64,000 bases of DNA from Achatina immaculata (lineage: Eukaryota; Mollusca; Gastropoda; Stylommatophora; Achatinidae), in NCBI GenBank assembly GCA_009760885.1, contig CM019719.1:32056084-32120083 (forward strand), read 5' to 3'. Every line of letters starts with the position of its first letter. The stretch's first letter is position 1. Below the pieces are notes generated by a model that saw only the letters and a list, made by a program, of their open reading frames with translations, was not told the origin of the DNA and did not search any database. The position numbers and the translations under genes are program-made. Of the stretch, positions 2,089-45,100 are shown piece by piece.

Positions 2089-5000
2089 CTGCAGATTTCA
2101 AGAAATTTTTAAAATATATATATATTTATTGGAATGACCTTCCAATATTTTTAAGGGCACTGATAATAAGCAGGAATTAATATTAACTAAACCATTATAC
2201 ATTTATAAGATTTTGATCTAGATTAAAGCACATAATTTATTATTTAACAGAACAAAAACCAAGCATAAATGTGCCAGTGAGACTCAGAATTATTTGAGTC
2301 ACAACATAATATGTGGGCTTTATTAATAAAATTCATGTTAGACAATAAGATAGGAAAATGTCATGCTTCTGGCTGATGCAATGTCAGTAATTACATCTTA
2401 TATCCTTTCCGTGCCGTTAAACACCATACAGGGCTCGCACTGTAGTTCACCAAGTTATCCCGTTTTGTGCGAGCTTTTCAACCTCATCAAGGGATTTTAT
2501 GCCTACTAATTTAGCCTCTCTTAATAATATCCTCTTTAGAGTTTCACGTGGCCGACTTCTTTTTCTCTCGCCTGTTGTGTTCCACTTGATAGCTTGTTTT
2601 GGGATTCTCTGATTGTTTCTTCTCATCACGTGACCGATATATGCTCATCTCCTTTTTCTGATCACCCATAAGAGAGGCTGTTTTTCACTCATCTGCCTTA
2701 TCTCAGCGCTGTTCTTGAATTCATTCCACTTTATACCAAGTATTTTCCTTAGGATTTTGTTTTCAAAAGAGTCTAAATTGTTGTCTATTTCTTTGGTTGT
2801 TTTCCAGCTTTTGCATGCATAAATAAGAGTAGATATTACACTTGACCCCCGTGTGGTACCCGGGATCTGCAAAGAATAGGACCACTGTACCCTACCATGC
2901 ATGATCGTAAAAGGCGACTAAGGAGGGTTCAGCATAGGGCCAGCAACCCTAGCTGGTAAAAAACTATCAGACTGCTACAGAAACAGAAGCAAGGGAAAAA
3001 GCAAATGCAGGTGGAAGGAGAAATGCTTATCAGGAAACTGAGCCCATGAAGGTTGTGGATGAAAGCCAGCCACTGGAAGTCCCCAGCCCGACTGCAGACC
3101 TCCTGGAACCTAAACAAAAGATGCAAATAGGCAGCTGGAATGTAAGAACACTAAACCAGACTGGAAAACTAGCACAAACCATCAAGGAAATGCACAGATA
3201 CAAACTAGACATACTAGGAATACAAGAAGCAAGATGGACAGGACAAGGCAGAAGGAAATTAACAACACAGCACACAGAAGATACAATAATATGGTCAGGT
3301 AAAGAAGATCTTCATGAAGGAGGAGTAGCATTGATTATAACAAAAGAAGCATCAAGAGCATTGCTGAAATGGACCCCAATAAATGAGAGATTATTATATG
3401 CACGGTTCAACTCAAGATTCACGAAGCTGTCTATTATAGTTTGTTATGCACCAACAGAAGCAGCTGAAGAGGAATTAAAAGAAGATTTTTACAACAGCCT
3501 CCAAGCCACAGTAGAAACAATACCCAAGCATGATATGCTACTCATCTTGGGCGACTTCAATGCAAAAGTAGGTGAAGGAAATGAAGATAGAAGAAGAATC
3601 ATGGGAAGAGAAGGAATCGGAGAAATAAATGAAAATGGAGAAAGACTGTGCAGTTTCTGTGAAGAAAACATGATGACCATCGGAGGGACAATTTTCCAAC
3701 ACAAAAACATCCATAAGGTGACTTGGAGGTCACCAGATAAAACCACAGAAAACCAAATCGATCACATACTAATAAACAACAAGTGGAAACGGTCACTAAA
3801 AGATGTGCGAGCAAGGAAAGGAGCAGATATAGGAAGTGATCACAACCTTCTGGTAGCAAAAATAAAACTAAAATTAAGGAAAGCCAGAATCGGAGAACAC
3901 AGAAAGATACATTTTGATACAAGAAAACTGATAGACCAGCAAACAAGAAATGAATTCTCAATAATACTTAAGAACCGCTTCAGTGTCCTACAAGATGAAG
4001 CAGAAATGTCCATATTAGAGTTCAATAAAACACTACAGGAAACAGCAAAAGAGGTGCTGGGATATCGGAAAAGGAGAAAAGAGGAATGGATAAGTGAGAC
4101 CACATGGGAAAAGACAGAGCAAAGAAAAGAAATCAAGAAAAAATTACTGAACACCAAATCACAACGGCTTAAAGAACGAGTTTTAAGTAATTATGCACAA
4201 AAAGACAAAGAAGTGAAGGAATCATGCCGTCAAGATAAACGTCAATATTATGACAACTTAGCAGAAACAGCAGAGAAAGCAGCATATACAAATGACATGA
4301 AAACCATATATAAAATCACAAAGCAGATGACAGGTAACTTCAATACAAGATGTGAAAGTGCAGTAAGAACACAAAATGGACAACTGGTCAGTGGAGAAAG
4401 AGAAAAAATTGAAAGATGGAGGGAACACTTTAACACCCTACTAAACAGAACACAAGCAGCACAAGCAATAGATATACCTGAAGCAAAAGTGGAACTAAAC
4501 ATCAATACAGGACCAATAACAATAAATGAAGTAAAAGAGGCGATAAAGATGCTAAAATCAGACAGGGCACCAGGTGAAGATGAAGTGACTGCTGAGATGT
4601 TGAAAGCAGAAGAAACAGAAACACCAAAACAACTTTGCCGGATATTACAACAAATTTGGGATTTAGAAAAAGCCCCAGAGGAGTGGAAAACTGGTCTTAT
4701 AGTAAAACTACCAAAGAAGGGTGACCTCAGAGATTGCGGGAACTGGAGAGGCATTACCCTACTGCCACTCACTAGTAAAGTATTTTGCAGAATAATCATC
4801 AACAGAATTGTACCAACACTTGAGGAAAAACTTCGGAAAGAGCAGGCAGGATTTAGGAAAGGAAGATCATGCATAAACCATATATTTGTACTTAGACAAA
4901 TATTAGAACAGGCAAATGAGTGGCATAGCACAACATATGCATTATTCATAGATTTTGAGAAAGCCTTTGACAGTGTCAACAGAGATGCACTGTGGAAAAT

Positions 5001-8000
5001 CCTAAGATGGCATGGCCTCCCCCATAAAATAGTTAATGTAATCAAAGCCCTATACGAGGGTTTTCAGTGCAAAGTTATCTGTGGAGAACATACCTCCAGC
5101 AGCTTTAGGGTACAAACAGGAGTGAAACAGGGATGTGTACTATCACCAACATTATTTATCTTGGCAGTAGACTGGTTAATGAAGGAGGCAACATCAGACA
5201 AACGCAGAGGATTACAATGGACCCTTGACACAGTGCTGGAGGACCTTGACTTTGCGGACGACATTTGTCTATTATCAAGCAGTCACAAAGATATGCAAGA
5301 TAAAATAAACAAGTTAACCCAGAATGCAAACAACATAGGACTAAAGATCAATGTAGGAAAGACAAAGTTAATGAAGCAAAATGTGAACAACAGAAATGTA
5401 CTCAGAGTAGATAACAAGTTAGTGGAGGAGGTCAACGAATTTGTATACCTTGGCAGCAGAGTAGTAGAAAATGGAGACAGCACAGAGGACATCAACAGCA
5501 GACTTACTAGAGCAAACCAGGCTTTTGCAATGCTACAGAATATATGGAAATCAAATAAACTAAGCATAAATATGAAAATCAGGATATTTAAGAGTAATGT
5601 TCTAAGTGTACTACTCTATGGAAGTGAATGCTGGAAAATCACCAAAACCATAGAAAACAAGTTGAATTCTTTCCAGACTAAATGTTTACGTAGAATTAAA
5701 AAAATATTTTGGCCAAACACCATAAGAAATAACATTTTATTGGCAGAAATGCAGATGAAACCACTGACAACAATTATTGAGGAAAGACGCTGGCGATGGT
5801 TGGGACATGTGCTCCGAATGACTGACAACTCACTACCAAAAATAGCACTAAGATGGACACCACAGGGGAGCAGAAGTAAGGGTAGACCAAAAGAGACATG
5901 GAGAAGAACAACAGAAAGGATGTTGAGCAATAGAGGGCTCACCTGGGCAAGAGCAGAAAAAAAGGCGAAAGACAGGCATTTGTGGAAAACCCTTGCGGAA
6001 GCCCCATGTGCCCTGGGCACTTAAGGTTCAGAGAGAGAGAGAGAGATTACACTTGAATTGAGTAATCTTAGCTTGGTTTTTGTGCTTCTGAAAGTGCTTG
6101 ACTGAAGGACAATGCTGCTTTTGCAATTCTAACTACTTTTCTGGTGTTACTATCCTGGTCTATGTAGCTGCTGAGATGTGCAAATTGGTTTACTTCATAA
6201 ACAACTGTTCTTTCTATGTATATTTTTCCTTCTTGAAGTTTCATTAGTTTACTGAATATGTCAGTAATTACCACATTAAAAATGTCACTCCAGTGATCTG
6301 CAAACAGCAATATACCAGATATGTATGCTTTTCTCAAAAGCAGTAACGCAGTATATTCTGTCACTGTGGTATACTTGAGAGCGAAGCAGTAGACGTCCCA
6401 GCAAAAGGAGCTGGCAGATTACCAAAGACAAACACAAATATAACATACAAGTATTAACATACAAGAAACAAGCGAAAGAGCATCCAGGTCACCTCAAAAA
6501 TGACACCTGCTACCAACTTGGATGAGAAGAGCAAGACATCATTTTTTTTTCTTCTGGGTCCAGATCGGTCATAAAAGAATGAGATGCCACCTATTCAACA
6601 AGCGCAATCAACATGTGCACATGTGCCACCATTAAGATGATTGGAAAACACAGAATGCCCAAAGTATAAGGAGCAGAGAAAACAGCATGCATCTTCCTAT
6701 AAGAAAATATGCACGTGAGAGTCTGAGAGGTAAAGGTCATATTCTCTTCCTAGTCTACAGCACTTAATATATTACAGGACTGATCTCTCTTTTGACAAAC
6801 TCCAGCTTCATTATACATAAAATTTCTTTCACTATTTACTTGACCTCACAATCAGAATATTAGTAAACATAATCTGAGAAGCCATGCTCACATCATCCTA
6901 AACACAGTCAGTCTGTGGTTAATGTAGTTGAATAATGCACCAAGCAGACCACCTGTGAATTCAGATACAAAGGATAAACTATACCACAATTTTATCTGGT
7001 TCATAAAACATCACAAAATGTAATATAACTTTCCTGTTACATAAAACATTGTGTAAAGTGAAGACAGACATGCAATGAAGACATCAAAAACTGAGGAGAA
7101 AAATGGAGTAACTGAATCTGGTATTCAAATGTTAGTGAACTATGCTTCGCTGACACTGGCAACTGTCTTCAGACTTTCACACTAGTTTCTCCCATTTACT
7201 GAATTCAGCACAAGGTTACTAGGTAAATTATCATAATGAATTCAGCACAAGGTTACTAAGTAAATTATCATACTGAATTCAGCACAAGGTTTATCATACT
7301 GAATTCAGCACAAGGTTATTAAGTAAATTATCATACTGAATTCAGCACAAGGTTACTAAGTAAATTATCATACTGAATTCAGTACAAGGTTACTAAGTAA
7401 ATTATCATACTGAATTTGACACATGATTACTACATAAATTATCATACTTAATTCAGCACAAGGTTACTATATACATAACCAAACTGAATTCAGCACAAAG
7501 TTTTACTATATAATGATCATACCAAATTGAGCACAAGGTCACAATGTATATTAGCATGAAGCAAAATTTAAAAAAAAAAAAAACAGAAAGACATGGGACA
7601 ACAAAGTAAACCGGTGACACTGAATAAAAAATTGAGAGCTTGTGAAAGTACTGAGTACTGTCATTCTATCTTACACATGATGCAGGACAACTTAGCTAAA
7701 TCTCTTCAGTGCTCTTCTCACTGCCTCTCCTTTAATGAAGAGAAGAAAGGTAAAGCATGGTCTATAATGCCATAAGATCAAGGGGATAAGGTGTCAGCAC
7801 CAAAATTTTCCTTGACCTCTTGACACATTTTACTTCCCTAGCTCCATGAGGAGCCAGGTACTTGTTTCTACAACTGGGTGACCTTCTGGTCAGAACTGAA
7901 CCACTAGCCTCACAGTCAGCCGCGCAGAGCCGCGCCGAGCTACGCTACACAGCGCGGGCTGCTGCTGTTGCACACGCCGACCATTCTTTTGGTGAAAAAG

Positions 8001-11000
8001 CGCTCTCAAGTTCCGTGCGTGGGGAGAAAGGCTTTCGCTCCCCTCCCGGACGGCGAGAGTTAAGGTGTTTCAATGCAGAAGCAAGTGGTTTGTCCGTCGA
8101 GCGAAGCATGTAAACGGCTAGCCAGCCAGGTTCGTGCTAACGATGTAGTACGGTTTTGTCGACCGATGGTCTCAAAATTGGCCCATCTCTCGCAAAGAGT
8201 ATCGGGTCTGCAGTATGTAATGTGCGTTTGTTGTGGGCGGCTGGGCTCTCTTCTCATTCGCTAAAGCAGAGAGAGCCGCTGGACTCCCCCGCGGGTTAAA
8301 GGAAGTGAAACGCCGCCGGGGTTGAAAGGGATCCGCTCTGTGCAGAGCGCTGTCTCCCTTGCCCCACGTCGGTCTGTCGGTAGATATTCGACTAAGGTGC
8401 GGTGAAGAAAGCTATCTGGTTGATCCTGCCAGTAGTCATATGCTTGTCTCCGCTGCTGGCGAGATTCTTCAACTGCCGTGCATGGAGCGGTGATCCTCTG
8501 GGCCAATGAAGAAAGGTGCAAATGGGGTTGTCGCGCGGCATCACTGCAGAAAAGGTGGTAGAAAGGATAAAGCGAAGCAAACAGTCAAATCATGGCACCT
8601 CTGGTCTGGAGGTCGGCCATGTCCTGAATGCAGTCATATCGGGTGGAATGCATGAACCGGCTTAACCCAGAGGTTAAGACACTGCTGGCGAGACTCTTCG
8701 AATGCCGCGCATGGAGTGAAGCTCCTCCCGGTCAAGGAAGAAAATGCGGAAAAAGAAATAAGGGTTGCTGTGCGGTGCCGGTGTGAAAGGGTGAAGGAAA
8801 GGATAAAGTGAAGTTTAGTCGGTATGTCCAGTAGTATCGCTACGAGAGCTACACATACCATGGCACCTCTGCTCTAGAGGTCGGCCATGTCCGAAATACA
8901 CCTACACTGGTGAAATATGCCTAAACCGGCACATACCAGTGGTGAAACCTGATGGCCAGGCATGTCACGCCACCTCCGCTCTTGAGGTCAGTCACACCTG
9001 ATATACACCCATACTGGTGAAATATGCCTAAACCGGCTCATACCAGGGGTGGAACTTGAAGGCTAAGCATGTTGAGGTACCTCTGCTCTAGAGGTCGGTC
9101 ACGTCTCAAACTTGCCCATACTGGGATAATATGCCTAAACCAGCTCAACCCAGAGGTGGAAGTCACTAGTGGCGAGGATTCGTCCTCCTGGACAAAAGCT
9201 CCATCCTGGTCACAACTAGGAAGGGTAGCGGCCACGACCACAAAATGCTGAAGTCGGAGACACTGGACCAGGGCAGTCTAGATAGGCAATCACCTCTCAC
9301 CCGGCGGGGATGTATGCATATCCTAATCACGCTGTGGTTTTCCGGTGAGAGAGTCCAACACTGGGCTGGATGGGCAACCACCTCTCACCCGGCGGTGATA
9401 CATGGGTATCTCAAAACACGTCGAGGTCTTCCGGTGAGAAAGTCCAACCCTAGACTAAACTGGTGCAATGAAAACCACGGTGTCATGCAATCCTGCTTCT
9501 GAGACCCACCATGAATACAGGCTCAAGCCCTGAGATACTCTGAACCTCTTGTGGTCCTCTTGGGGATCTCATGTGGTCCATTCGGGGACCGCACGGGGGA
9601 TCACGGGACTTAATGAGGACCACAGGAGTAAATTCAGTAGGATCACAGGGCGGTCTTGATGGTAGAAGCGAACGAAGAAGAAGAAGAAGAAGACTAGTCT
9701 CACAGTGAGAGACTACTGCACTAACCACAAATGCCCAGACACCCGTGAATAGGGATGAAAATTATGTTGCTGCACACTTTCAAGAAATCTCCAAAGTTCT
9801 TTTTTTTTGTCATTTTAGCATTGTTTCAGCATACATTTGTTACATGTTCTTCTTCTGTCTCATTTAGACAAGTTACAGCAGGGTTTCTCAACCCACGTTC
9901 TGTGGAACCCTAGGATTCCATGACAATTCTGCATGAGTCTTTTTCCCTCAGAGTATATATAACTGATGAATCTCTCCCAGGCACTTCTCGTGGAACCTTA
10001 GGACTTGGCTACAGGCTTTTGTTTTTGTCCAAGACAAATTGGTTAAAAAGCCTTTTTTTTCTATGATAGGAAAAAGAAATCTACTCTTCCAGCGCCATAT
10101 GCTGCAAGTCAAACCTGGTTAACATTTTGTACATCATCAGCACAAGGTTACTAAGTAAATTATCATACTGAATTCAGCACAAGGTTACTATAAATTATCA
10201 TACTGAATTCAGCACAAGGTTACTGAGTAAATTAGCATACTGAATTCAGCACACTCATTTATTATTATTCTTTTCTGCAGCAGGCATTTTTTTCTGCCTG
10301 CTCTAGTGACTTTATTAGAACTGGTATATCTTATGTTGAGGGGAGTAAGGGCAGTGATATCTGGGAGGAAGGTGGTGGTGGGGTGGGGTGGGGGAAAAGA
10401 GGACAGGGCACATGAGGTAAAAAATGAGTAAAAAAAAAAAAAGGTAATCCTCTCATGCCTTAGAGACACATAGGGATATGGTGTTAGTGCCCATATTTTC
10501 CTTGACCTGTCGAGTGCCAGTAAATATTTTAATGCTGGGACTTTGCAGGCAGAAAAGAAAAATATATTGTGAAAAACATAACATGTGAAAGAGGACGACA
10601 ATGTGAAACTCTAAAGAGGACGACCATGTGAAACTCTAAAGAGGACATTGTTTAGTGGGCATAAAATCCCTTGATGAGGTTAAAAAGCTCGCTGAAAACA
10701 GGAAAACTTGGCAAACTACCATTTGAGCCCTACGTGACGTTTAACGGCACGGGAAGGATATAACAGAAATCTGAGGACAGCCTGCCCGCAAAGTCAATGA
10801 GAAAATCACACAGTGCCTTGATTAAATGTATCAGTGTAATACATGCTTGCTAATAATAACTAACACAGTGAGACAGAATACATAAACTGCTACTCACCAA
10901 CAGCTCCCATGCATATCACAATCAGAAGGTAATAAATTCTGTAATTCACATTCTGAAAAACAGAAATACAAAAAAATACTGCTATAAATACAACTACAAA

Positions 11001-14000
11001 TTTAAATAAAACTACCACAAGTATACTTCAAGAAGCATCCATCAATACTGAATGTAAAAAAGGTCAGAAATGTTTACTTTCTGCTTTTTACAATTGCTGT
11101 ATGTAAGCAACCAAAAAAGCATGTGAATAACTATAGCCACTTGCAAATGAAATAGATAATAGTATACTCTATTAGAGACATTAATACTGCTAAAACACCC
11201 ACAATGGCACAGCAAGGAGAGAGGATAGGAATCCAACCTTAAAAAAACCTGCTGAAGCAAGTATGGACTTTATGAAACACAGTTGCGGCACCATAAATTT
11301 TGCCTGCAGACCACAAGAAGTTGAAAGAATTTACTATGCTGTAAAATACCATTATGCTTCCTTGGTGACTGCTTTCTTGATTCAGGTCTGAGGTCACAAA
11401 TAAGAGGATATGACCACAATTCAAAATTAATACTTCATGGAAGAAGCTACAAAACAAACAAACAAACAAATATATATATATATAAATACATATATATATG
11501 TGTGTACATATGTATATATGTATGTGTGTGTATATATATATATATACACACACACACACATACATTCTTTCAAAATAATTATCCATTCACTATTTATATA
11601 TGAGGAATTTTCACATGATTTATACATTACTGATACCAAACATATCCCTAACTAAACTACAAAAATGAACTGCCATAAGGGAAGTAGTCTGTCTTAAATT
11701 TCTCCTATAAGAACATGTAACAGAGGCATGAGAAGATATGAATAAGATTCTACACTGATGCTCAATACAAATCTATAACCATAGAATATCTGATGTATGA
11801 AATGAAAGACTCTAAAGAAATCCTTTAAAAAAAGAACACAGAATAATTGTAAGGACATCCATACAGCACTTAAGAGAGGAAAGTTAGCTAAAGCAGATGT
11901 CTGCAAACTGTATTCAGCCAAGACCCTACTTCAATTCCACAAAGTGCCCTTGGAAACAGGCTGTGTCACTTCAGACAGCCAACTAAGGTCAAGATCAACA
12001 TGGTTCTCATCATGGTGGAGCTTACAAGAAAGTCTAACATTGCAAATCACTTGAAGAGTAATTTACGCCCTATGTCATGATGAAAGTTACTATGCTTGCC
12101 TGCAGAAAAGCTAGGATCCCATTCTCATAACATTCAAAGCAAGAACAAGAAAAGATACACCCAAGAGGAAACTGCATCCTTCCATGATGCCTCACGATAC
12201 ACATGAGGGAATAAAGAGCCCAACAAAGACTACCTGTTAAACTGAGGACAATACTTTGTGAATTATGAACACTGATTTGCAAGCCTTCCCTATATCAACA
12301 GTATTATGAGCCTTAATGTAGCAACAACAAGATCCTTATCTTATCTTCCTTCCTAGTGACCACAATACAGATCAGTGTTTCCCAAAGTGGGTGATAATGC
12401 TTCCCCTTGTGGGCATTCAAAATTGTGGGTGGTGAAAGAAAAAGGGTCAGCAGGGGGGCAGTGGAAGAAAAAAGGGCAGTAGGAGGGCAATGAGGGAAAA
12501 TGAAGCAGAAGACAGGGACAGTAATACTTTCCATCTTAGCACTTTTCAACCTGATACTGAGAAACTTGTGTCCCTACATGAAATTCATTCATCACGTTAA
12601 ATGTTGAGAAAATAATGCAGTAGGTGAGCTATAAGTATACTCCTTCATACTGTCAAATAAATTGGTCTTCCAGTTGAAATTTTTGTTATGTAATGCTTGT
12701 CCTAGTTTAATAGGTCATTGTGTGAGTAGTAGGTTCTAAGGACTGCAAACGCGCCTCAAACAGCCTCTGGCAGTCAAGTCCAGCTCCTGGCCTTCCCGTG
12801 GCAGAACTGTTTAAACCGACAGGAGAAGGGGCGAGGGCGAATATCTGGCACCTGAAAACCAGTTACTTAGGATAGATGAGTGGCACGTTTGGTAGCTCAT
12901 CTGCCGCTTTTGGCGAGATTTTCAGCTGCCGTGCGTGGAGCGGTGCTCCTCCCAGCCAATGAAGAAATTTGCAAATGAGGTTGCTGCACAGCATCACTGC
13001 GGAAAAGGTGGTAGAAAGGATAAATCGAAACAAACAGTCAAATCACGGCACCTCTGGTCTGGAGGTCGGCCACGTCCTGAGTGCAGTCATATCGGGTGAA
13101 ATGCATGAACCGGCTTGTCCCAGAGGTTAAGACACTGCTGGCGAGACTCTTCAAATGCCGCGCATGGAGTGAAGCTCCTCCTGGTCAAGGAAGAATGCGG
13201 AAAAGAAATAAAAGTTGCTGTGTGGCGCCGATGGGAAAAGGTGGTGGAAAGTGAAGTTTAACCGGTATGTCCAGTAGTATCACTACGAGAGCTATACCAC
13301 GGCACCTCTGCTCTAGAGGCCGGCCACGTCCGAAATACACCTACACTGGTGAAATATGCCTAAACCGGCACACACCAGGGGTGGAACTTGATGGCTAGAC
13401 ATGTCATGCCACCTCCGCTCTAGAGGTCGGTAATGCCTGATATACACCCATACTGGTGAATTTTGCCTAAACCGGCTCATACCAGGGGTGAATCTTGAAG
13501 GCTATGAATGTCACAGTACCTCTGCTCTAGAGGTCGGTCTCGTTCCAAACACGCCCATACTGGGATAATGCCTAAACCGGCTGAACCCAGGGGTAGAAGT
13601 CACTAGTGGCGAGGATTCGTCCTCCTGGACAAAAGCTCCATCCTGGTCACAACTAGGAAGGGTAGCGGCCATGACCGCAAAATGCTGAAGTCGGAGACAC
13701 TGGACCAGGGAAGTCTAGATAGGCAACCACCACTCACCCGGCGGGGATGTTTGCGTATCCTAATCACGCTGAGGTTTTCCGGTGAGAAAGTCCAACCCTG
13801 GACTGGATGGGCAACCACCTCTCACCCGGCGGTGATACACGGGTATCTCAAAACACGTCGAGGTTTTCCAGTGAGAAAGTCCACCTCTGGCCTGGGTAGG
13901 CTACCGCCTCTCACCCAGCGGGGATGCACTGATATCCTAAACACGTCGAGGTCTTCCGGTGAGAAAGTCCAACCCTAGACTAAACTGGTGCAATGAAAAC

Positions 14001-17000
14001 CACGGTGTCATGCAATCTCGCTTCCGAGACCCACCAAGAATACAGGCTAAAGCCCTGTGATACTCTGAACCCCTTGTGGTCCTCTCGTGGATCTCATGTG
14101 GTCTTTTTGGGGACCACACAGGGGACCACGGGACCTAACGAGGACCACAGGCGTGAATTCAGTAGGATCACAGTGCGGTTTTTGGTGGTAGAAGCGAACG
14201 AAGAAGAAGTGTGAGTAGTACATGGGGGGGGGGGGGGGGTAGCATTGCAGATGTGGCCTGGGAGAAAAGAGGCCAGCAACCCAAACAAGCCTGGGAAACG
14301 CTGATATAGATTATCTTCTATGTTTTTCATACACATACTACATGTCTCAGTTATTTTTCCACTGGTATTATAAATGTTGATCACAATTCTCCACACACTA
14401 ACTTAAATATCAGGCTTACTTCAAAGGTCCCAAAATCAATTAGGCCAGCATAAGAAAGATCCCCTGGGTGTCCTTTGATGAAGCTTTGAATAATATTCAA
14501 GGTCATTGTTGAAACCATGGAAGAAAAAAACTACCAGGAAAGAAAAACAAAAAAAAAGCATCATAAACTCAAATTTTAGAAAACTGAATCTCACACTGCT
14601 TAGTAAAGCAGCTAAGAAATGTGTAAATACCACTACGCTGGAGGTAAGAAAGAGAACTGAGTTAGCTGGATGAACATGAACAGTTTACATTGCTTAATGA
14701 AGTACCTACAGATGAAACTGTTAATTAATGGCAAAAAGCATTAACAGAGTCATTTTACAGTTATAAATGTACTGCTGTTTATAGGGCTTTGCTTGTGCTT
14801 TTCAGACAAAACACAGTCATTTACAATGTATAATTTCATTACAAAATAACTGAAATATCTGGTCAATAATGCTTATTACAAATCTTCTTTCATCACTGAA
14901 AGCAAAATGTCATACTCTGTTATATATCTTCCATCTAGTGATAATGGGCCTTTTGGCTAAGATCAAAGTGTAGTTCTGCACTCTGTAGAATGTACACTTT
15001 GTTATTTTGGAACCAACGAGGTGTTTGAGGCCGCCCTGCACATTGACTGCCGGGGGTAAGGTCCGCATCTCGTTACGGGTGGGCCCGGTTTGCAGTACCA
15101 CCGGGTCACGGCCTGTTGTTTTCGTTGTCTCAAAAACAAAAAAAACAAAAAAATCTAGTGATAATGGGTTCCATCCACCTGTGAATTTTTGTCCATTCAT
15201 TATGAGTGATTTCCTGTTATTTATTAAAATGATAGCATATTTTTAGTTCTGTTTCATGTAGCATTTTTGTATAAAGATGAACCATATCTCATTTTCACAG
15301 TGTCCATAGTAAAACATTTGAGACCTTTGATTTACAGAGTATCATCACCTGATGATGCTTCTAATGTTTTCTTCATTAAAAAAAAAACAAAAAACCATCA
15401 TAATAACAGGAAAGATAACTGGCAAGAGAGGCATGGGGAAAAAAATCAAGAGAAAAAAATTACTGACAGTCTAATGCGATGGCACAAAAAGTAATCAAAT
15501 AAGCCAAAAGAAAATATCAAGGAACAAGATCTATGAAGAAGCATGCCCATCAATGCCAAATCCCATGACTCCTATGATGATGATGATGATGATGATGACA
15601 CTTCTAATGAAAGGCTGGCCTCAATGGCCCCTCCAACTAGCTTTGTCCCCTGTTTTCACAGTGCACTCGCCAAAGCTGAATCCAATCCATCTCCTTATGG
15701 TGTCCACCAGTCTATACTGTTGCCATCCTCTTACTTTTTTTTCCTTCAACTTTTCCTTTTCAGTATGGTTTTCATTATTGTTTTCTCACCTCTTGATATG
15801 ATCAAAATATTTTAATCACTGTTCCAAAATAACCAGATGTATAACTAAGACTACTACAGTATATGATACACTCACCCATCACTACATTTTCAAAATGCTA
15901 CACTCATTCATCACTATATTTTCAAAATTTTACACTAACTCATCACTACATTTTCAACATGCTACACTCACTCATCACTACATTTTCAAAATGCTACACT
16001 CATTCATCACCACATTTTCAAAATGCTACACTCACTTATCACTTCAAAATGCTACACTCACTTACCACTACATTTTCAAAATTCTACTTACAATTCTCCA
16101 GACAAGAGATTGATTCCAAAATGAAGCTCCCTCTTCCAAGCTGAAAAGAACGCCACCAACAGGAGCACCAAAAGCAGCAGCTACACCAGCGGCTGCACCA
16201 GCAGACACAAAATCTCGTTTTTCTGTGTCACTCCGGAAGTCATGGAATATCTGTGCAAACCAAATGTTGCATTGTTTAAAAAAGTCAATTCACATATCGT
16301 TATTAGATATTTGCTCCAAGAACAAATAAAACAAAATAAAATTATCTTCATCCACTAAATTATCATTTTAAGAACCAACTTAGACCAAGAAATGACTTCA
16401 AATGCTTTTAATGTTTTAAAGAAATAAAATATTAAGGTATAATTTTTTCTTTCCTTTCATCATCATCATCATGTGCCGTGCCGACTGGCGTTGGCTATTA
16501 TGCTTCTCCAGAGTACACGATCCTTCATGCAGGCCATCAGCTCAGTTGGTGATCTCCTCTCACACCATCCCGTCAGACTGTCCAGTATCATTTCTCTTGG
16601 TCTTCCTCTTGATCTTCTTCCTTCTATTTTTCCTGTTGTTATAATATTTTCAATGCCCCCTCTTCTCATTGCATGTCCTATGAAAGTACATTGTCTCTCT
16701 CTTATCTTTTTGACAAGGTTTTTTGTCTCTCCAGCTCTTCTCCTACATTCTTCATTAGTTATTTTTGCTGTCCAGGGGATTCGCAACATTCTTCTAATAA
16801 ACCACATTTCTGCTGCTTCCAATGATTTTTGTGCAGACTTGCCTATTGTCCATGATTCACTTCCATATAACAAGATAGGTTCAATATAGCATTTTAGGAC
16901 TCGTTTTCTAACATTCATTGATAAGGATGTGTTGGTCAATATGTTTCTCATTCTCTGAAATGCAGTCTTTGCTTGGCCTATTCTGTTCCTAATTTCTGTT

Positions 17001-36166: not shown

Positions 36167-39100
36167 GTAAATAAGAATACATCTTAACACAAAATTGCAA
36201 TTTTTTATTTCTGAAGTATATGACCCGTTTAAATGACATAAAACTTAAGCGATGTAAAATGTTATTCTGCCGCACTTTCTCGAATACATGGAGCTGACTT
36301 ATGATTTCACAGATGATTCAAATCTCAGCAACAAGATCGTAATAACGGCTTCATGTCAGCACTTTCATTTTCAGAATACAAAACTTCCAGAGATCCTAAA
36401 TATGAATTTATAACAGAATGGTGAGACAGGTTAAAAAAAGTTATGTTCAATGATGTCGCTTATACATATGTATAGTCAGCGTACACGTGTTTGTGTTCCC
36501 AATACCGTTTGAAATGAACAACCAAAGGTATTTCATGAACATGTATGCAGGAAACTCTCTACCGTATAGAGCGGAACAACAACAACTCCATCAGATCATC
36601 AGAGGAAGTACCCCCCCCCCATCAGACAAGTGTTTCAGCCCTATTAAACTCCTGATACTCTAAGGAGGGTGGGACCCTCTGGGTCATGACTCCCAGAGGT
36701 CTTGTGAGTTGTTGCTTTTTTCGTCCCGGGACTAAGTTGACACCGCACTTTGAAGTGCGTCTTTAGCGATTTAGCTACGGAGGACTGGTATTGGTTGTGG
36801 CAAATGACATTTATGTTCTCAATGTTTGTTTCGCATACTCCACAGCCAACACGAAGCCTTGTCTGCTGTTTCTGAAAGGCTTTTCAATGCCATTGCTCTT
36901 GCTTGTCTCTTTATGCCCAGTACTTACATAGGTCGTATAGTGATGTTGCTGTGAATCCTCTCGCTCCCACTTCTACAGCTATAACTTTTTGAAATGAACA
37001 ACTAAAGGTATTTCATGAACATTCATTTGAGCAGTGACACGGACAAGGCTTTGAGAAGAACAAAAAAAAATATATATATAAAGTGAAGTTGTTTGTTTTG
37101 TACATACACATGTGGTGGCCTGGTTAGCTGAGTGGTTAGTTTACTAATCCAGTGACACCGGGTTAAGTCCCAGCAGTGGGATTTTTTTCTGCTGCACCCC
37201 AGATCACCCAGCCTCTAAAAATGGGTAACAGAAAAATCTGGGAAGGTAAAGCAACCAGGTGTGGTACTGACCACATCAAACTTTCATGTGCTGAAGGTCA
37301 TGGAAAATACAGACCTAACACTGTATATGGCATGGAAACTGGTGTTTTACTATCTACATGCACATTGTGTAATTATATGTTGTTATTAAAAAAAATTGTA
37401 CACTGCCAGAATGTGATAACAAAATGAATGAAAATTTGAATTTTACTTATAACGTCATGAACATTCGGACTCAGGGAAATAGCTGATTCCCCAGTTTATC
37501 CACATTCTCAAGATAAATCATCATCATCCATCCATGCTCTTTGTCAGTAATTCTTCTTTCAGTTTCATATGCTCAGTTATCTAGACAAGGAGACAGGCTG
37601 CCTCCATGAATTTCACAGTCAGTAGCTCTTCCCATGGTGCACTGCAGTTTTTCATCATGTTCTTTTCTTAGGGCCAGGTTTGGGCTCTTGGATTTCTGTA
37701 GCGTATGTGTTTGGGAGTTTAGCATGTGCAGAGTGGAATTTGAGTGGCTTCAGTTTGTGTAGATGGCCTTGTAGTAAGTGATCGTGCAAGGATTTTTTGA
37801 AAATTTTAACTTTTTTCACTTTACGGGAATAGCTCGGATTTTCTGAAATACTGGTCTTTTTTTTAACACAACATTCAGTATCTTTTTTTTTTTTTTTTCC
37901 TAATGTTACATTACACAGAGCAGGAATTGAATGTTCTTGTGAAGTTTTTTTTTTCTTACCTTGTTTGTGGTGATATTTACAAAATGCTGAACCGAAATAA
38001 AAATTGGCTGATTTTTCTCCATGCAAACTGAGCATCATCATCCTACTGGTCCAGTTATCTTCCTGCTAATTTTGTTGCTTGCTTTTTACTAGGTTTTTGA
38101 TAAAGTGAAATTTAATCGGTATGTCCAGTAGTATCGCTGTGAGAGCTACACATACCATGGCGCCTCTGCTCTAGAGGCCGGCCACGTCCGAAATAACATC
38201 CATACTGGTGAAATATGCCTAAACTGGCACACACCAGGGATGAAACTTGATGGCCCGGCATGTCACACCACCTCCACTCTAGAGGTCGGTCACGCCCGAT
38301 ATACACCCATACTGATGAAATATCCCTAAACCGGCTCATACCAGGGGTGAAACTTGAAGGCTACGCATGTCGCGATACCTCTGCTCTAGAGGTCAGTCAT
38401 GTCCCAAACATGCCCATACTGGGATAATATGCCTAAACCGGCTCAACCCAGGGGTGGAAGTCACTAGTGGCGAGGATCCGTCCTCCTGGACAAAAGCTCC
38501 ATCCTGGTCACAACTAGGAAAGGTAGCAGCCACGATCACAAAATGCTGAAGTCGGAGACACTGGACCAGGGTAGTCTAGATAGGCAACCACCTCTCACCC
38601 GGCGGGGATGTATGCGTATCCTAATCACGCTGAGGTTTTCCGGTGAGAAAGTCCAACACTGGACTGGATGGGCAACCACCTCTCACCCGGCAGTGATACA
38701 CGGGTATCTCAAAACACGTCGAGGTTTTCCAGTGAGAAAGTCCAACTCCGGCCTGGGTGGGCTACCACCTCTCACCCAGCGGGGATATACTGATATCCAA
38801 AACACATCGAGGTCTTCCGATGAGAAAGTCCAAATCTGGACTAAACTGGTGCAACGAAAACCACAGTGTCATGCAATCCCGCTTCTGAGACCCACCAAGA
38901 ACACAGGCTCAAGCTCTGAGATACTCTGAATCCACTGTGGTCCTCTTGGGGATCTCGTGTGGTCCTTTCGGGGACCACGGAACTTAACGAGGATCACATG
39001 GGTAAATTCAGTATGATCACAGGGCGGATTTGGTGGCAGAAGCGAACGAAGAAGAAGAAGACTAGGTTTTTGATAATAGGTACCAGTTACAATAATTGAT

Positions 39101-42100
39101 GGCCTCTGAAAGTTTCAGTTTTTCTCTCTCTCTCTTTTTTTTTTTTTCCATCAATTTACCAGTAAGTGCTGGTTAACACTATCACTGATAGTGTTTGGTA
39201 TCTCTCTCTCTGAGCCTTAAGTATCCAGGGCACATGGGGCTTCCGCAGAGGTTTTCTGCAAATGCCTGTCCTTTGCCTTTTTTTTTTTTTCCACTCTTGC
39301 CCAGGTGAGCCCTCTGTTGCTCAACATCCTCTCTGTTGTACTTCTCCATGTCTCTTTTGGTCTACACTGACTTCTGTTCCCGTGTGGTGTCCATTTAGTG
39401 CTATACCAGTGTCTGGTATAGAGCCTGATAATTATGATTTGTTGTGTTCTGTAACAAACACAATCACCTTGTGGCATCTTGTGGAGCATTAACAAATTCT
39501 CTTCCTTTCTAACCAACCATTACATGGTGCTTTATCTGTGTTGCATTCTGTTCATCTCTGCTTATGCATTTATTCATTAGATTGGCTTTGGTCGGCTTCT
39601 TTTTCCTCCAGATCTCAGTCACATAGTTGTGTTAGTGATGTTGTTAGGCTCTCGTCAGGGCACATGACCAGTTAGTATCCAGTGCCTTATTTCAATAATT
39701 ATGTGGATATCTTGTTTGCAGTGATCATAGCACATCTCAGCATTACTTATCTGAGAGTTGTCCTAAAGACCTATGTTTTGTTCTACCCTTATGAGCATTA
39801 TAAGACAGTATGCCCTATTAATACTCACATGGACAAGCAAGCTTTAACTTCATAAAATTAACCTGTTTCAGGGGTTGAATTTGCAATAGAGTCAAAACAT
39901 AAATTTTAAGAGGAAAAACCAAATCATTAAAGGAAAAAAAAAGGGGAAATTGCTGAGGTTCACAGATTTGTGAGCATTTATTTTACCATAATTTTCCCTT
40001 TATTCATTTACTGACAGACAGACAAAATACATTATATAGTTAGATTATCATTATTGTACATTAACACACTGGACATTTTGCATCCACAGATCAATGTGTA
40101 CTTATCAAAGAGCTTGTCAGATAACCTTTACCTTATGCAGGTAAATTACAGAGTTTAAACATTCTTTTTCTTAGATTTGGGAAATAAATCTTTTGTTATT
40201 TATTGAAAATTTTGGTTTAGTTGCTAGTGCACCTGTCTGCTGATCAGAAAGACCATTTCAGTTTCACACTCACACAAAATGTTTTTGGACCAATGGACAC
40301 CAGGGTCAACCCGACCAGAAAAAAAAAAGGTACTCGGGAGAAACAAAGGCACCAAGGACGGATAACTGGCATCCTTACCTCAAATTCTGAAGTGGCCTAG
40401 AAATGTGAAGCCACTAACATGTCACACTCACATGCTATGGGGCATAGATTTTTAATCACTTTATAGTTAATATAGTGATGTGTGTGTGTATGTATAAACA
40501 CATAATTCCATAATTAAAGAGAAGAATATATATATCTCTCTCTCTCTCTGAACCTTAAGTGCCCAGGGCACATGGGGCTTCCGCAAGGGTTTTCCACAAA
40601 TGCCTGTCTTTCGCCTTTTTTTCTGCTCTTGCCCAGGTGAGCCCTCTATTGCTCAACATCCTTTCTGTTGTTCTTCTCCATGTCTCTTTTGGTCTACCCT
40701 TACTTCTGCTCCCCTGTGGTGTCCATCTTAGTGCTATTTTTGGTAGTGAGTTGTCTGTCATTCGGAGCACATGTCCCAACCATCGCCAGCGTCTTTCCTC
40801 AATAATTGTTGTCAGTGGTTTCATCTGCATTTCTGCCAATAAAATGTTATTTCTTATGGTGTTTGGCCAAAATATTTTTTTAATTCTACGTAAACATTTA
40901 GTCTTGAAAGAATTCAACTTGTTTTCTATGGTTTTGGTGATTTTCCAGCACTCACTTCCATAGAGTAGTACACTTAGAACATTACTCTTAAATATCCTGA
41001 TTTTCATATTTATGCTTAGTTTATTTGATTTCCATATATTCTGTAGCATTGCAAAAGCCTGGTTTGCTCTAGTAAGTCTGCTGTTGATGTCCTCTGTGCT
41101 GTCTCCATTTTCTACTACTCTGCTGCCAAGGTATACAAATTCGTTGACCTCCTCCACTAACTTGTTATCTACTCTGAGTACATTTCTGTTGTTCACATTT
41201 TGCTTCATTAACTTTGTCTTTCCTACATTGATCTTTAGTCCTATGTTGTTTGCATTCTGGGTTAACTTGTTTATTTTATCTTGCATATCTTTGTGACTGC
41301 TTGATAATAGACAAATGTCGTCCGCAAAGTCAAGGTCCTCCAGCACTGTGTCAAGGGTCCATTGTAATCCTCTGCGTTTGTCTGATGTTGCCTCCTTCAT
41401 TAACCAGTCTACTGCCAAGATAAATAATGTTGGTGATAGTACACATCCCTGTTTCACTCCTGTTTGTACCCTAAAGCTGCTGGAGGTATGTTCTCCACAG
41501 ATAACTTTGCACTGAAAACCCTCGTATAGGGCTTTGATTACATTAACTATTTTATGGGGGAGGCCATGCCATCTTAGGATTTTCCACAGTGCATCTCTGT
41601 TGACACTGTCAAAGGCTTTCTCAAAATCTATGAATAATGCATATGTTGTGCTATGCCACTCATTTGCCTGTTCTAATATTTTCTAAGTACAAATATATGG
41701 TCTATGCATGATCTTCCTTTCCTAAATCCTGCCTGCTCTTTCCGAAGTTTTTCCTCAAGTGTTGGTACAATTCTGTTGATGATTATTCTGCAAAATACTT
41801 TACTAGTGAGTGGCAGTAGGGTAATGCCTCTCCAGTTCCCGCAATCTCTGAGGTCACCCTTCTTTGGTAGTTTTACTATAAGACCAGTTTTCCACTCCTC
41901 TGGGGCTTTTTCTAAATCCCAAATTTGTTGTAATATCCGGCAAAGTTGTTTTGGTGTTTCTGTTTCTTCTGCTTTCAACATCTCAGCAGTCACTTCATCT
42001 TCACCTGGTGCCCTGTCTGATTTTAGCATCTTTATCGCCTCTTTTACTTCATTTATTGTTATTGGTCCTGTATTGATGTTTAGTTCCGCTTTTGCTTCAG

Positions 42101-45100
42101 GTATATCTATTGCTTGTGCTGCTTGTGTTCTGTTTAGTAGGGTGTTAAAGTGTTCCCTCCATCTTTCAATTTTTTCTCTTTCTCCACTGACCAGTTGTCC
42201 ATTTTGTGTTCTTACTGCACTTTCACATCTTGTATTGAAGTTACCTGTCATCTGCTTTGTGATTTTATATATGGTTTTCATGTCATTTGTATATGCTGCT
42301 TTCTCTGCTGTTTCTGCTAAGTTGTCATAATATTGACGTTTATCTTGACGGCATGATTCCTTCACTTCTTTGTCTTTTTGTGCATAATTACTTAAAACTC
42401 GTTCTTTAAGCCGTTGTGATTTGGTGTTCAGTAATTTTTTCTTGATTTCTTTTCTTTGCTCTATCTTTTCCCATGTGGTCTCACTTATCCATTCCTCTTT
42501 TCTCCTTTTCCGATATCCCAGCACCTCTTTTGCTGTTTCCTGTAGTGTTTTATTGAACTCTAATATGGACATTTCTGCTTCATCTTGTAGGACACTGAAG
42601 CGGTTCTTAAGTATTATTGAGAATTCATTTCTTGTTTGCTGGTCTATCAGTTTTCTTGTATCAAAATGTATCTTTCTGTGTTCTCCGATTCTGGCTTTCC
42701 TTAATTTTAGTTTTATTTTTGCTACCAGAAGGTTGTGATCACTTCCTATATCTGCTCCTTTCCTTGCTCGCACATCTTGTAGTGACCGTTTCCACTTGTT
42801 GTTTATTAGTATGTGATCGATTTGGTTTTCTGTGGTTTTATCTGGTGACCTCCAAGTCACCTTATGGATGTTTTTGTGTTGGAAAATTGTCCCTCCGATG
42901 GTCATCATGTTTTCTTCACAGAAACTGCACAGTCTTTCTCCATTTTCATTTATTTCTCCGATTCCTTCTCTTCCCATGATTCTTCTTCTATCTTCATTTC
43001 CTTCACCTACTTTTGCATTGAAGTCGCCCAAGATGAGTAGCATATCATGCTTGGGTATTGTTTCTACTGTGGCTTGGAGGCTGTTGTAAAAATCTTCTTT
43101 TAATTCCTCTTCAGCTGCTTCTGTTGGTGCATAACAAACTATAATAGACAGCTTCGTGAATCTTGAGTTGAACCGTGCATATAATAATCTCTCATTTATT
43201 GGGGTCCATTTCAGCAATGCTCTTGATGCTTCTTTTGTTATAATCAATGCTACTCCTCCTTCATGAAGATCTTCTTTACCTGACCATATTATTGTATCTT
43301 CTGTGTGCTGTGTTGTTAATTTCCTTCTGCCTTGTCCTGTCCATCTTGCTTCTTGTATTCCTAGTATGTCTAGTTTGTATCTGTGCATTTCCTTGATGGT
43401 TTGTGCTAGTTTTCCAGTCTGGTTTAGTGTTCTTACATTCCAGCTGCCTATTTGCATCTTTTAATATATATATAAAGAGTATATATTGTAAGTATTTTTC
43501 CACCTGTTGCCGCAAACTGTAAACAGATTTATAGTCAGGAAGTCATAGTGGCAAACTTGGTCAATCTGTGGAATAAGGATGTCTGTAATTTGTTTTGCAA
43601 CTGTTCAGTGCAGTTGCGTCTGAGACTTTGATCAAAGATCTTTTGTGGTTACCTTAAATGTTTAGTAGTGAATTTTGTTGTACTTTCTGCTGTAATAAAA
43701 AATATTTTTCCAAAGCATTATAGTGTGTGTGAGTGAATGAGTGAGAGAGAGAATATAGTGGAACTATTTTTAAGTGTCATCTTTTTAAGTTTAAATTTCT
43801 TAAACAGAATCTTGAGATCCTAACTAGTCCATCAGTGGATTAAATTATTAGCTTCATATATAAATGATGGTGGCAGGGTGGTAAAAGCACTTCTCTGCAA
43901 ATCAGAATTGAACACTTGTTCAATTTTGCACTGCCAGATTTTTTTTTTTGCACTGACCAGCATCTTAGCCTGCAAAAAATGGATACCTAATATCTTCTTA
44001 AGAAAACAACAGGCAGTGAAGACAGGTGCTGGCATCCCTACCTCAATTACTGTAGTGGCCTAGGAATACAAAGGCACTAACACTTCACACCCCTAAGGCG
44101 TGCAGATGCTACATGACACAGAGATCAGAATCATTAGTTCTTTGTAACATTTGCCTTTCAGTATCCACTTCGGCCAGCAAGGATGGGTTATGGACACTTT
44201 GACCACATATCAGCACGAGTTAAACCACAGCAGAAAAGGGTGGGTTTGTCTTGTTTAGGATAAGTAATATGATAATAATATGTAATAATTTGCAGGCTCA
44301 GAGGTCACAGAGTTTTATTAGTTGTAAATCCATTTAAAAGCTGGATTTTATAAAACAGATTTAATACTTTAACCTGTCACGAGCTGTTTACGCAACTTTA
44401 AAAAAAAAAAAAGTAATAATAATAATAATAATACGGTCTTATGGCTGTATTTTGTAGTCAGGAGTTTGTAGTTCTAAACTGCCAGAAATGCTACAAATAG
44501 GCATGACAACATTTCCAGGTAAAATCTAACAATTTTTGTTATTAAAAAATGTTCAGGGTTGTATTGTTCAGTAGGTTAAGAGTTTGAGTATATAAGTATA
44601 TAGACAAGAAAAGGTAATAGAACAACTAAGTGTTATAAGGTATGCTGCAGATTATCTACTACAGACTGTGTAAAGAAAGTCACAGCAGTTTTACACACAA
44701 AAAAAACTCATACTATTTCATGTCTTTAACATGATGTAACTTTGCCACTAATCAACAAAAAAAAATGCATATGTCACTTCCTAAATAATCCACCATTTTT
44801 CAAGGTGTTATGAAATGCTCAAAATATTTTTTACAAAACCCTCCACTGTTTAAAAGCATTTCAGAGAATAATAATGAGTGTAGTCATTATTATTTTAATT
44901 ATTTCAGTCTGGAAACATTAAAGTAGTAGGATTTCACTAAAATTCTGTAAAAAAAATTTTGTTTTTTTATTTTGTTTTTTTTTTCTTCAGAGGGTTAAAT
45001 TTTAACTTAAAAAAAAATATGTATATATCTCCTCATGACCCTGTCTGAGACACCTGCCACCCACCCACAAACCGCACACATGCCATGACCTTAATTTGGA

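Follow-up and report, generated by a model that had tools for sequence, protein, structure and literature searches.

In 5' transduction, which is known for L1 (LINE-1; LINE, long interspersed nuclear element) and SVA, upstream transcribed sequence travels with the element. Ribosomal RNA (rRNA) sequence also reportedly stands at the head of some retroposons, the rRNA-derived short interspersed nuclear elements (SINEs) that Longo et al. are said to have described in 2015. Law and Burns (2026; PMC13174262) describe 18 28S/L1 chimeras in human, and R1 and R2 insert at specific sites of the ribosomal DNA (rDNA), the 5' end of R2 being made by a ribozyme (PMC3414825, PMC5035012). We analyzed a 64,000-nt stretch of the genome of the gastropod Achatina immaculata (the window), in which one copy of a (GAA)n-tailed retroposon (7917-9692) begins with sequence of the rRNA precursor (pre-rRNA). 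We found that this arrangement recurs across the genome, and it probably stems from retroposon copies that resided in rRNA genes and were read through by RNA polymerase I (Pol I). Among the matches listed in the open-licence PMC literature, none was recognizable by its title or the start of its abstract as describing a retroposon with a pre-rRNA head or the use of Pol I launch pads, which is no proof of absence.

A retroposon unit with a pre-rRNA head

The first-pass annotation of the window described a single insertion unit between 14-bp target-site duplications (TSDs), which starts with G+C-rich sequence, runs into the first 38 nt of 18S rRNA and passes into the body of a dispersed retroposon. 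Our analysis bore this out, and the unit is laid out as follows.

7903-7916, + strand: left TSD, ACTAGCCTCACAGT
7917-8412, + strand: 5' external transcribed spacer (ETS) of pre-rRNA, from a recurrent 5' end, (GT)CAGCC, up to 18S
8413-8450, + strand: 18S rRNA nt 1-38, from the Rfam small-subunit (SSU) model on homologous loci
8438-8450, + strand: putative TSD of an rDNA-resident parent, AGTC/ATATGCTTGTCTC (a TC/A site, 13 nt; the slash marks the insertion point)
8451-9673, + strand: retroposon body, short form, starting CGCTGCTGGCGAG, with internal repeats and a 3' hairpin
9674-9692, + strand: (GAA)n tail
9693-9706, + strand: right TSD, ACTAGTCTCACAGT

The unit consists of a 496-nt G+C-rich leader, 18S nt 1-38 and a 1242-nt body including (GAA)n. 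The two TSDs match at 13 of 14 bp, and the first GT of the leader is common to TSD and leader. In 200-nt windows, G+C content is 0.53-0.60 from 7900 rightward versus 0.28-0.44 to the left of 7900. Rfam scans of the whole window at the gathering threshold and of 7800-9800 at E up to 1 gave no match and missed the 38-nt 18S piece. At a locus with the same leader (L095; L numbers denote loci read in the assembly), the Rfam SSU model begins at the base corresponding to 8413 (model positions 1-482, E = 1.1e-127). The leader there continues through the whole 18S and further, giving in L095/L094/L096 about 2.7 kb of contiguous pre-rRNA made up of the ETS, the 1845-nt 18S and about 350 nt beyond. This identifies the window leader as a pre-rRNA leader, as had been proposed. 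The leader and the 18S piece have no other match in the window, in agreement with the earlier statement that the two further retroposon copies, copies 2 and 3, lack the rRNA part.

The join between 18S nt 38 and body nt 1 is found again at L012 on contig C15, with a different TSD. Since this join recurs, and since more than 50 places with comparable units were read, an assembly error is unlikely as the source of the window junction.

Headed copies across the genome

The assembly comprises 1.65 Gb in 145 contigs, the window lying on contig C7. Candidate counts from the first look refer to unconfirmed copies, and the loci read are the best-scoring ones. The whole unit gave 16,226 first-look candidates and the head alone (7917-8450) 2399, and 40 were scored for each query. 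Of the 40 head matches one is the window's own; the other 39 have 92-95% identity, are mostly full length and are spread over contigs. These genome-wide matches of head and unit reject a one-off chimera, which is how the unit had first been regarded. The process has recurred at dozens of 18S positions and, in nearly every place read, involves this retroposon family. Nor did the data support nt 38 as a special position; copies exit 18S at many points.

When the head places were read (30 loci and then 10), the sequence past 18S nt 38 was more 18S of variable length followed by the retroposon, unless the exit lay at or before nt 38. Of the 40 scored places, the window among them, 39 had the retroposon after the head; the exception is L076, where the sequence past 18S nt 639 was not recognized. 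L036 is among the 39, yet holds a nested second copy in reverse orientation inside its 18S part. The 18S of L036 resumes at nt 10, suggesting a duplication of about nt 10-25.

With 18S nt 500-1001 as the query there were 665 candidates (40 scored, 12 places read). Eleven of these places pass into the retroposon (L083-L086, L088-L094) and L087 passes into a second head. Exits found by this query run from nt 1018 to 1666, besides the one copy with the whole 18S and about 350 nt more. Overall, 18S exits extend from nt 21 to 1666, with 49 junctions in 25 clusters. The ETS also holds exits (L050 and, in L082, the inner head), as does internal transcribed spacer 1 (ITS1; L094/L096, L098, L099 and L100). 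The first 215 nt past 18S, which by their position are ITS1, yielded 12 candidates, all of which were scored as matches; an ITS1-to-retroposon junction was present in three of the four stretches read, and the L097 stretch covered the other side of the match. One unit, L017, has about 76 nt of 28S as its head. A 62-nt part matches the Rfam large-subunit (LSU) model (E = 1.8e-13), a piece missed in a broader Rfam scan of 11 loci, and the unit is bounded by the TSD GACAGGAACTAT.

Head and body were inserted together, as had been proposed for the window. TSDs enclose head plus body in 19 of the 21 headed copies whose tail lay within the stretch read (L035 and L038 have none); for 12 further headed copies the tail lay outside the stretch. 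Heads start at GTCAGCC or TCAGCC beside the TSD in nearly all copies compared, and GTCAGCC is presumably the Pol I start. An alternative start, GTTCTTTTGGCG, lies about 67 nt further into the leader in L012, L013 and the inner head of L087 and is perhaps a pre-rRNA processing site.

Some heads are nested. In L082 the leader and 18S up to nt 220 are followed by a second leader that runs from GTCAGCC to -222 and then by a long-form retroposon, the whole flanked by TTGATTTCCA (a TSD by eye). The nested head of L087 is of the same kind, and L029 is probably another, its left flank being 18S near the 3' end. Renewed transcription of a headed copy that had inserted into rDNA could explain nested heads; serial jumping of the reverse transcriptase (RT) between templates would explain them too.

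A head common to 2399 first-look candidates might also mean that a single ancestral copy captured pre-rRNA once and that the composite has been copied along since. The many different 18S exits do not fit such a family. In addition, leader and body distances among 30 copies, with per-copy age effects removed, were uncorrelated (r = 0.03, p = 0.25), whereas the controls were correlated, both between the two body halves (r = 0.22, p = 0.002) and between the two leader halves (r = 0.42, p < 0.002). In L010 the leader has diverged by 9.6% (6.0% in the distance-test alignment) versus 0.5% for its 18S; diverged leaders beside near-perfect 18S are expected if the source is evolving rDNA. The uncorrelated distances and these diverged leaders indicate that heads have been gained on many occasions and, unlike those of an rRNA-derived SINE, did not descend together with the body. 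Inheritance of one composite is refuted as the main process, and we give that account almost no credence.

Exit points and the insertion motif

The usual join is to the 5' end of the short form (CGCTG...), and several joins carry 1-3 extra nt. In L021, L042 and L082 the join is at the 5' end of the long form (GGTTC; GGTTCTAAGG), and in some copies, e.g. L030, L034, L043 and L045, it lies inside the retroposon. Splicing was rejected as the origin of the joins, no consistent GT/AG borders being seen by eye. Joins at the element's own 5' ends, several with extra nucleotides, would be produced if the RT left the 5' end of the retroposon RNA and continued on the 3' end of a pre-rRNA fragment up to the pre-rRNA 5' end. 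This template jumping has parallels: the R2 RT requires nontemplated additions to jump, best with 1-2 nt (PMC8857657), and L1 produces 28S and small-RNA chimeras (PMC13174262). Joins at 5' ends, together with the sense orientation, would likewise suit ligation of cut pre-rRNA to retroposon RNA before reverse transcription, as proposed for L1 chimeras (PMC13174262).

These accounts and residence of the retroposon in rRNA genes differ in what they say of the exit points. If parents had been inserted in 18S by the same machinery, exits should lie one TSD length downstream of the insertion motif. We derived this motif from the left TSD borders of 32 copies, hand-picked to the exclusion of L050, L051, L054, L063 and rows whose repeats were weak or misplaced. 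Position -2 is T in 25 of 32, position -1 is T or C in 28 of 32 (29 of 32 after correction of L033, with the same result) and position +1 is A in 22 or G in 7 of 32, giving TY/R. TSDs in these copies are 9-17 nt long (mean 12.2).

Most of the 18S exits match this prediction. Support for the TY/R offset came from a first set of 18 independent clusters (P = 0.00045) and from a later set gathered after the motif test, where 7 of 7 junctions fitted (P = 4e-5; P = 0.00064 with one per cluster, 5 clusters). For the pooled 25 clusters P was below 2e-5; it was 2e-5 without the main hotspot and 4e-5 with single-copy junctions only. A scan of shifts over the pooled junctions had its maximum at -1. A TY/R-like site lies 9-17 nt upstream of 41 of the 49 junctions (19 of the 25 clusters), versus 48% of all 18S positions, and TY/R counts peak 10-14 nt upstream of exits. 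The z score of TY/R was 4.66, versus a maximum of 3.65 among 143 permuted motifs.

The 49 junctions leave out those in the ETS (L050 and inner L082), ITS1 and 28S, as well as L036 and L076; adding L076 (nt 639) changes nothing. L084, L085, L086, L090 and L093 were counted as one, L084 and L085 being 1.8 kb apart on one contig and not independent. The exit of L027 was set from 1015 to 1001. L001-L009 and L011 are second stretches of places already listed and were left out of the junction list.

The biggest hotspot, nt 218-225, holds 14 of the 49 junctions behind TTTT/ATTAG, with ragged ends, and a second one at about nt 1234-1237 likewise shows ragged ends behind one site. This raggedness suggests variation in TSD length. 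Predicted hotspot insertion sites in 18S are 209/210, 337/338, 532/533 and about 1224/1225. The window copy fits the motif with AGTC/ATATGCTTGTCTC at 13 nt, and L017 fits it in 28S with AATC/AGCCAGCCCTGAC. The transduced pieces mostly end where the element's endonuclease would insert, a TSD length included; their ends are not independent of the insertion motif, as those of template-switch chimeras of the L1 type would be.

The first-pass annotation had offered two readings of the window unit, residence in 18S with Pol I transcription and RT switching to the 5' end of a pre-rRNA. The first fits the insertion-site evidence better, and the data are best explained when it is generalized from one position to dozens of sites. 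We had earlier favored template jumping for the joins at retroposon 5' ends and demoted it because the insertion-site test matched exits to TY/R. Jumping gives no reason for a TY/R site one TSD length upstream of the exits, nor for ragged hotspots, and the 49 junctions include none at the 3' end of mature 18S, though no query aimed at that end. Nested heads as serial jumps and the lack of siblings described below speak for it, and on this balance we regard it as unlikely. RNA ligation leaves the motif offset equally without reason, and we hold it to be very improbable.

We therefore propose, with fair assurance, that rDNA-resident parents gave rise to the headed copies. The retroposon would insert at TY/R sites genome-wide, rRNA genes included. 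A sense-oriented copy inside an rRNA gene would be transcribed by Pol I within pre-rRNA, and the read-through RNA would consist of 5' ETS, 18S up to the insertion point and the retroposon. Reverse transcription would then start from the 3' tail of the retroposon with insertion at a new TY/R site, so that pre-rRNA is carried along as a 5' transduction, often extending back to the transcription start at GTCAGCC. The window copy would come from a parent at 18S nt 25/26 with nt 26-38 as its TSD. If transcription of an rRNA gene far exceeds that of a dispersed copy, even rare insertions in rDNA could account for a visible share of the templates.

Several observations weigh against this proposal. 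No rDNA-resident copy and no tandem rDNA array was found, the 12 ITS1 matches being dispersed and none tandem, and no 18S follows the tail in copies with a TSD. Joins at the retroposon 5' ends are explained equally well by end-to-end jumping. A TY/R-like site is absent in 6 of the 25 clusters; lesser TY/R counts occur also at 5-6 and 27-29 nt, in a profile that counts the hotspot 14 times; and the nominal P values are optimistic, because the z of 3.65 reached by a permuted motif shows that 18S composition gives part of the signal. Finally, there were no clear siblings: among the pairs compared (34 copies in one set, seven in another and some further pairs, not all pairs), copies with the same junction were about as distant as random pairs. 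Each headed copy would therefore need its own parent. By our own estimate, which rests on score-based sampling, about 56 headed copies, if there is no sibling pair among them, probably mean more than about 500 equally contributing parents. With so many parents, rDNA insertions must have been frequent and short-lived.

Two sibling candidates were rejected. L010 and L079 share an odd junction string, yet differ at 40 of 470 ETS and 62 of 760 body positions, and the nt 1234-1237 group has slightly different exit points. Separately, L083, L091 and L092 have near-identical bodies (3-5 differences in 377-695 nt) and three different 18S exits, as in a young burst.

The retroposon and its place among known systems

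Two further copies of the retroposon lie in the window, both without an rRNA head.

12720-12731, + strand: left TSD of copy 2, GTGTGAGTAGTA (right one at 14209-14220)
12732-14208, + strand: copy 2, long form, with the 5' module GGTTCTAAGGACTG
38104-39060, + strand: copy 3, 5'-truncated, with the TSD ACTAGGTTTTTGATAA at 38088-38103 and 39061-39076

The body of the headed unit (copy 1) matches copy 2 at 12904-13883 (90%) and 13803-14209 (87%), and copy 3 at 38099-38746 (92%) and 38664-39061 (83%). No open reading frame of at least 130 aa was found in copy 1, and a stop-to-stop frame of 153 aa in copy 3 (38468-38929) has no Pfam match. TSDs and a simple-repeat tail are as in a SINE-like non-autonomous retroposon, and the element is presumably non-autonomous and moved by a LINE. 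Two LINEs of the window end in simple repeats other than (GAA)n. A LINE with RT and endonuclease domains, present as near-identical inverted copies at 3116-6047 and 40532-43462, ends in (AG)n.

Headless copies begin at the same two places as the junctions, the short-form and long-form 5' ends. A TSD exceeding all shuffles was present in 15 of 25 further copies, and in most of these the short or long form starts 0-2 nt after it; L063 starts 8 nt further and L054 is doubtful. A survey of body places (29 read of 40 listed), biased in that its query contained the head, found six ETS/18S heads including the window, one 28S piece, 12 long forms, eight short forms without head, one truncated copy and one unclear.

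Some side observations concern the body and its surroundings. L053, which is 5'-truncated, and L054 were left unassigned. In L054, body nt 1 follows a purine-rich sequence that has no Rfam match at E 0.1 and is possibly the head of another transcript. A short stem stands at both body-repeat starts (8451-8490 and 8679-8720) and covaries, CGCT/AGCG versus CACT/AGTG. A known ribozyme at the body start was rejected, since 7800-9800 has no Rfam match; the covarying stem remains. Two junctions (L023, L029) are at the second body-repeat start, and the retroposon 5' end seems to be defined by sequence. The insertion is flanked on both sides by 37-bp tandem repeats of one family (7160-7540 and 10092-10258).

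If the proposal is right, this is Pol I-driven retrotransposition of an element that is not specific to rDNA, with more than 50 copies read and perhaps thousands by the first-look candidates, compared with the 18 28S/L1 chimeras reported in human. It would suggest a way for a retroposon to be expressed from a promoter that it borrows. We lean, if only slightly, towards a broader claim: rRNA genes may serve as launch pads, in that short-lived insertions read through by Pol I would be a major transcript source, with a sizeable share of copies as children of rDNA parents and the heads as a fossil record of past leaders. The heads would then preserve the pre-rRNA start and old leader sequences that concerted evolution has erased from rDNA itself, and would offer a natural collection of data on where insertions fall within rRNA genes.

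Compared with the LINE-1 chimeras (PMC13174262), the headed copies are alike in that the 5' side of the retroelement carries an rRNA piece that was inserted with it, mostly in sense orientation. Those chimeras carry 28S fragments at few loci, whereas here the pieces include the transcript 5' end, the ETS and 18S up to ITS1 in more than 50 copies read, and the exits fall at the element's own insertion sites. R1, R2 and their short deleted derivatives (PMC3414825, PMC5035012) are transcribed inside pre-rRNA from rDNA insertions, as we propose here. Unlike them, this element is dispersed over chromosome-size contigs, not confined to rDNA in the manner of R2, and brings the rRNA leader to other genomic locations. 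What would set this case apart from the 5' transductions of L1 and SVA is a Pol I promoter at the source and rRNA genes, carrying the element at many positions, as sources. In contrast to the rRNA-derived SINEs, the heads seen here have been regained many times.

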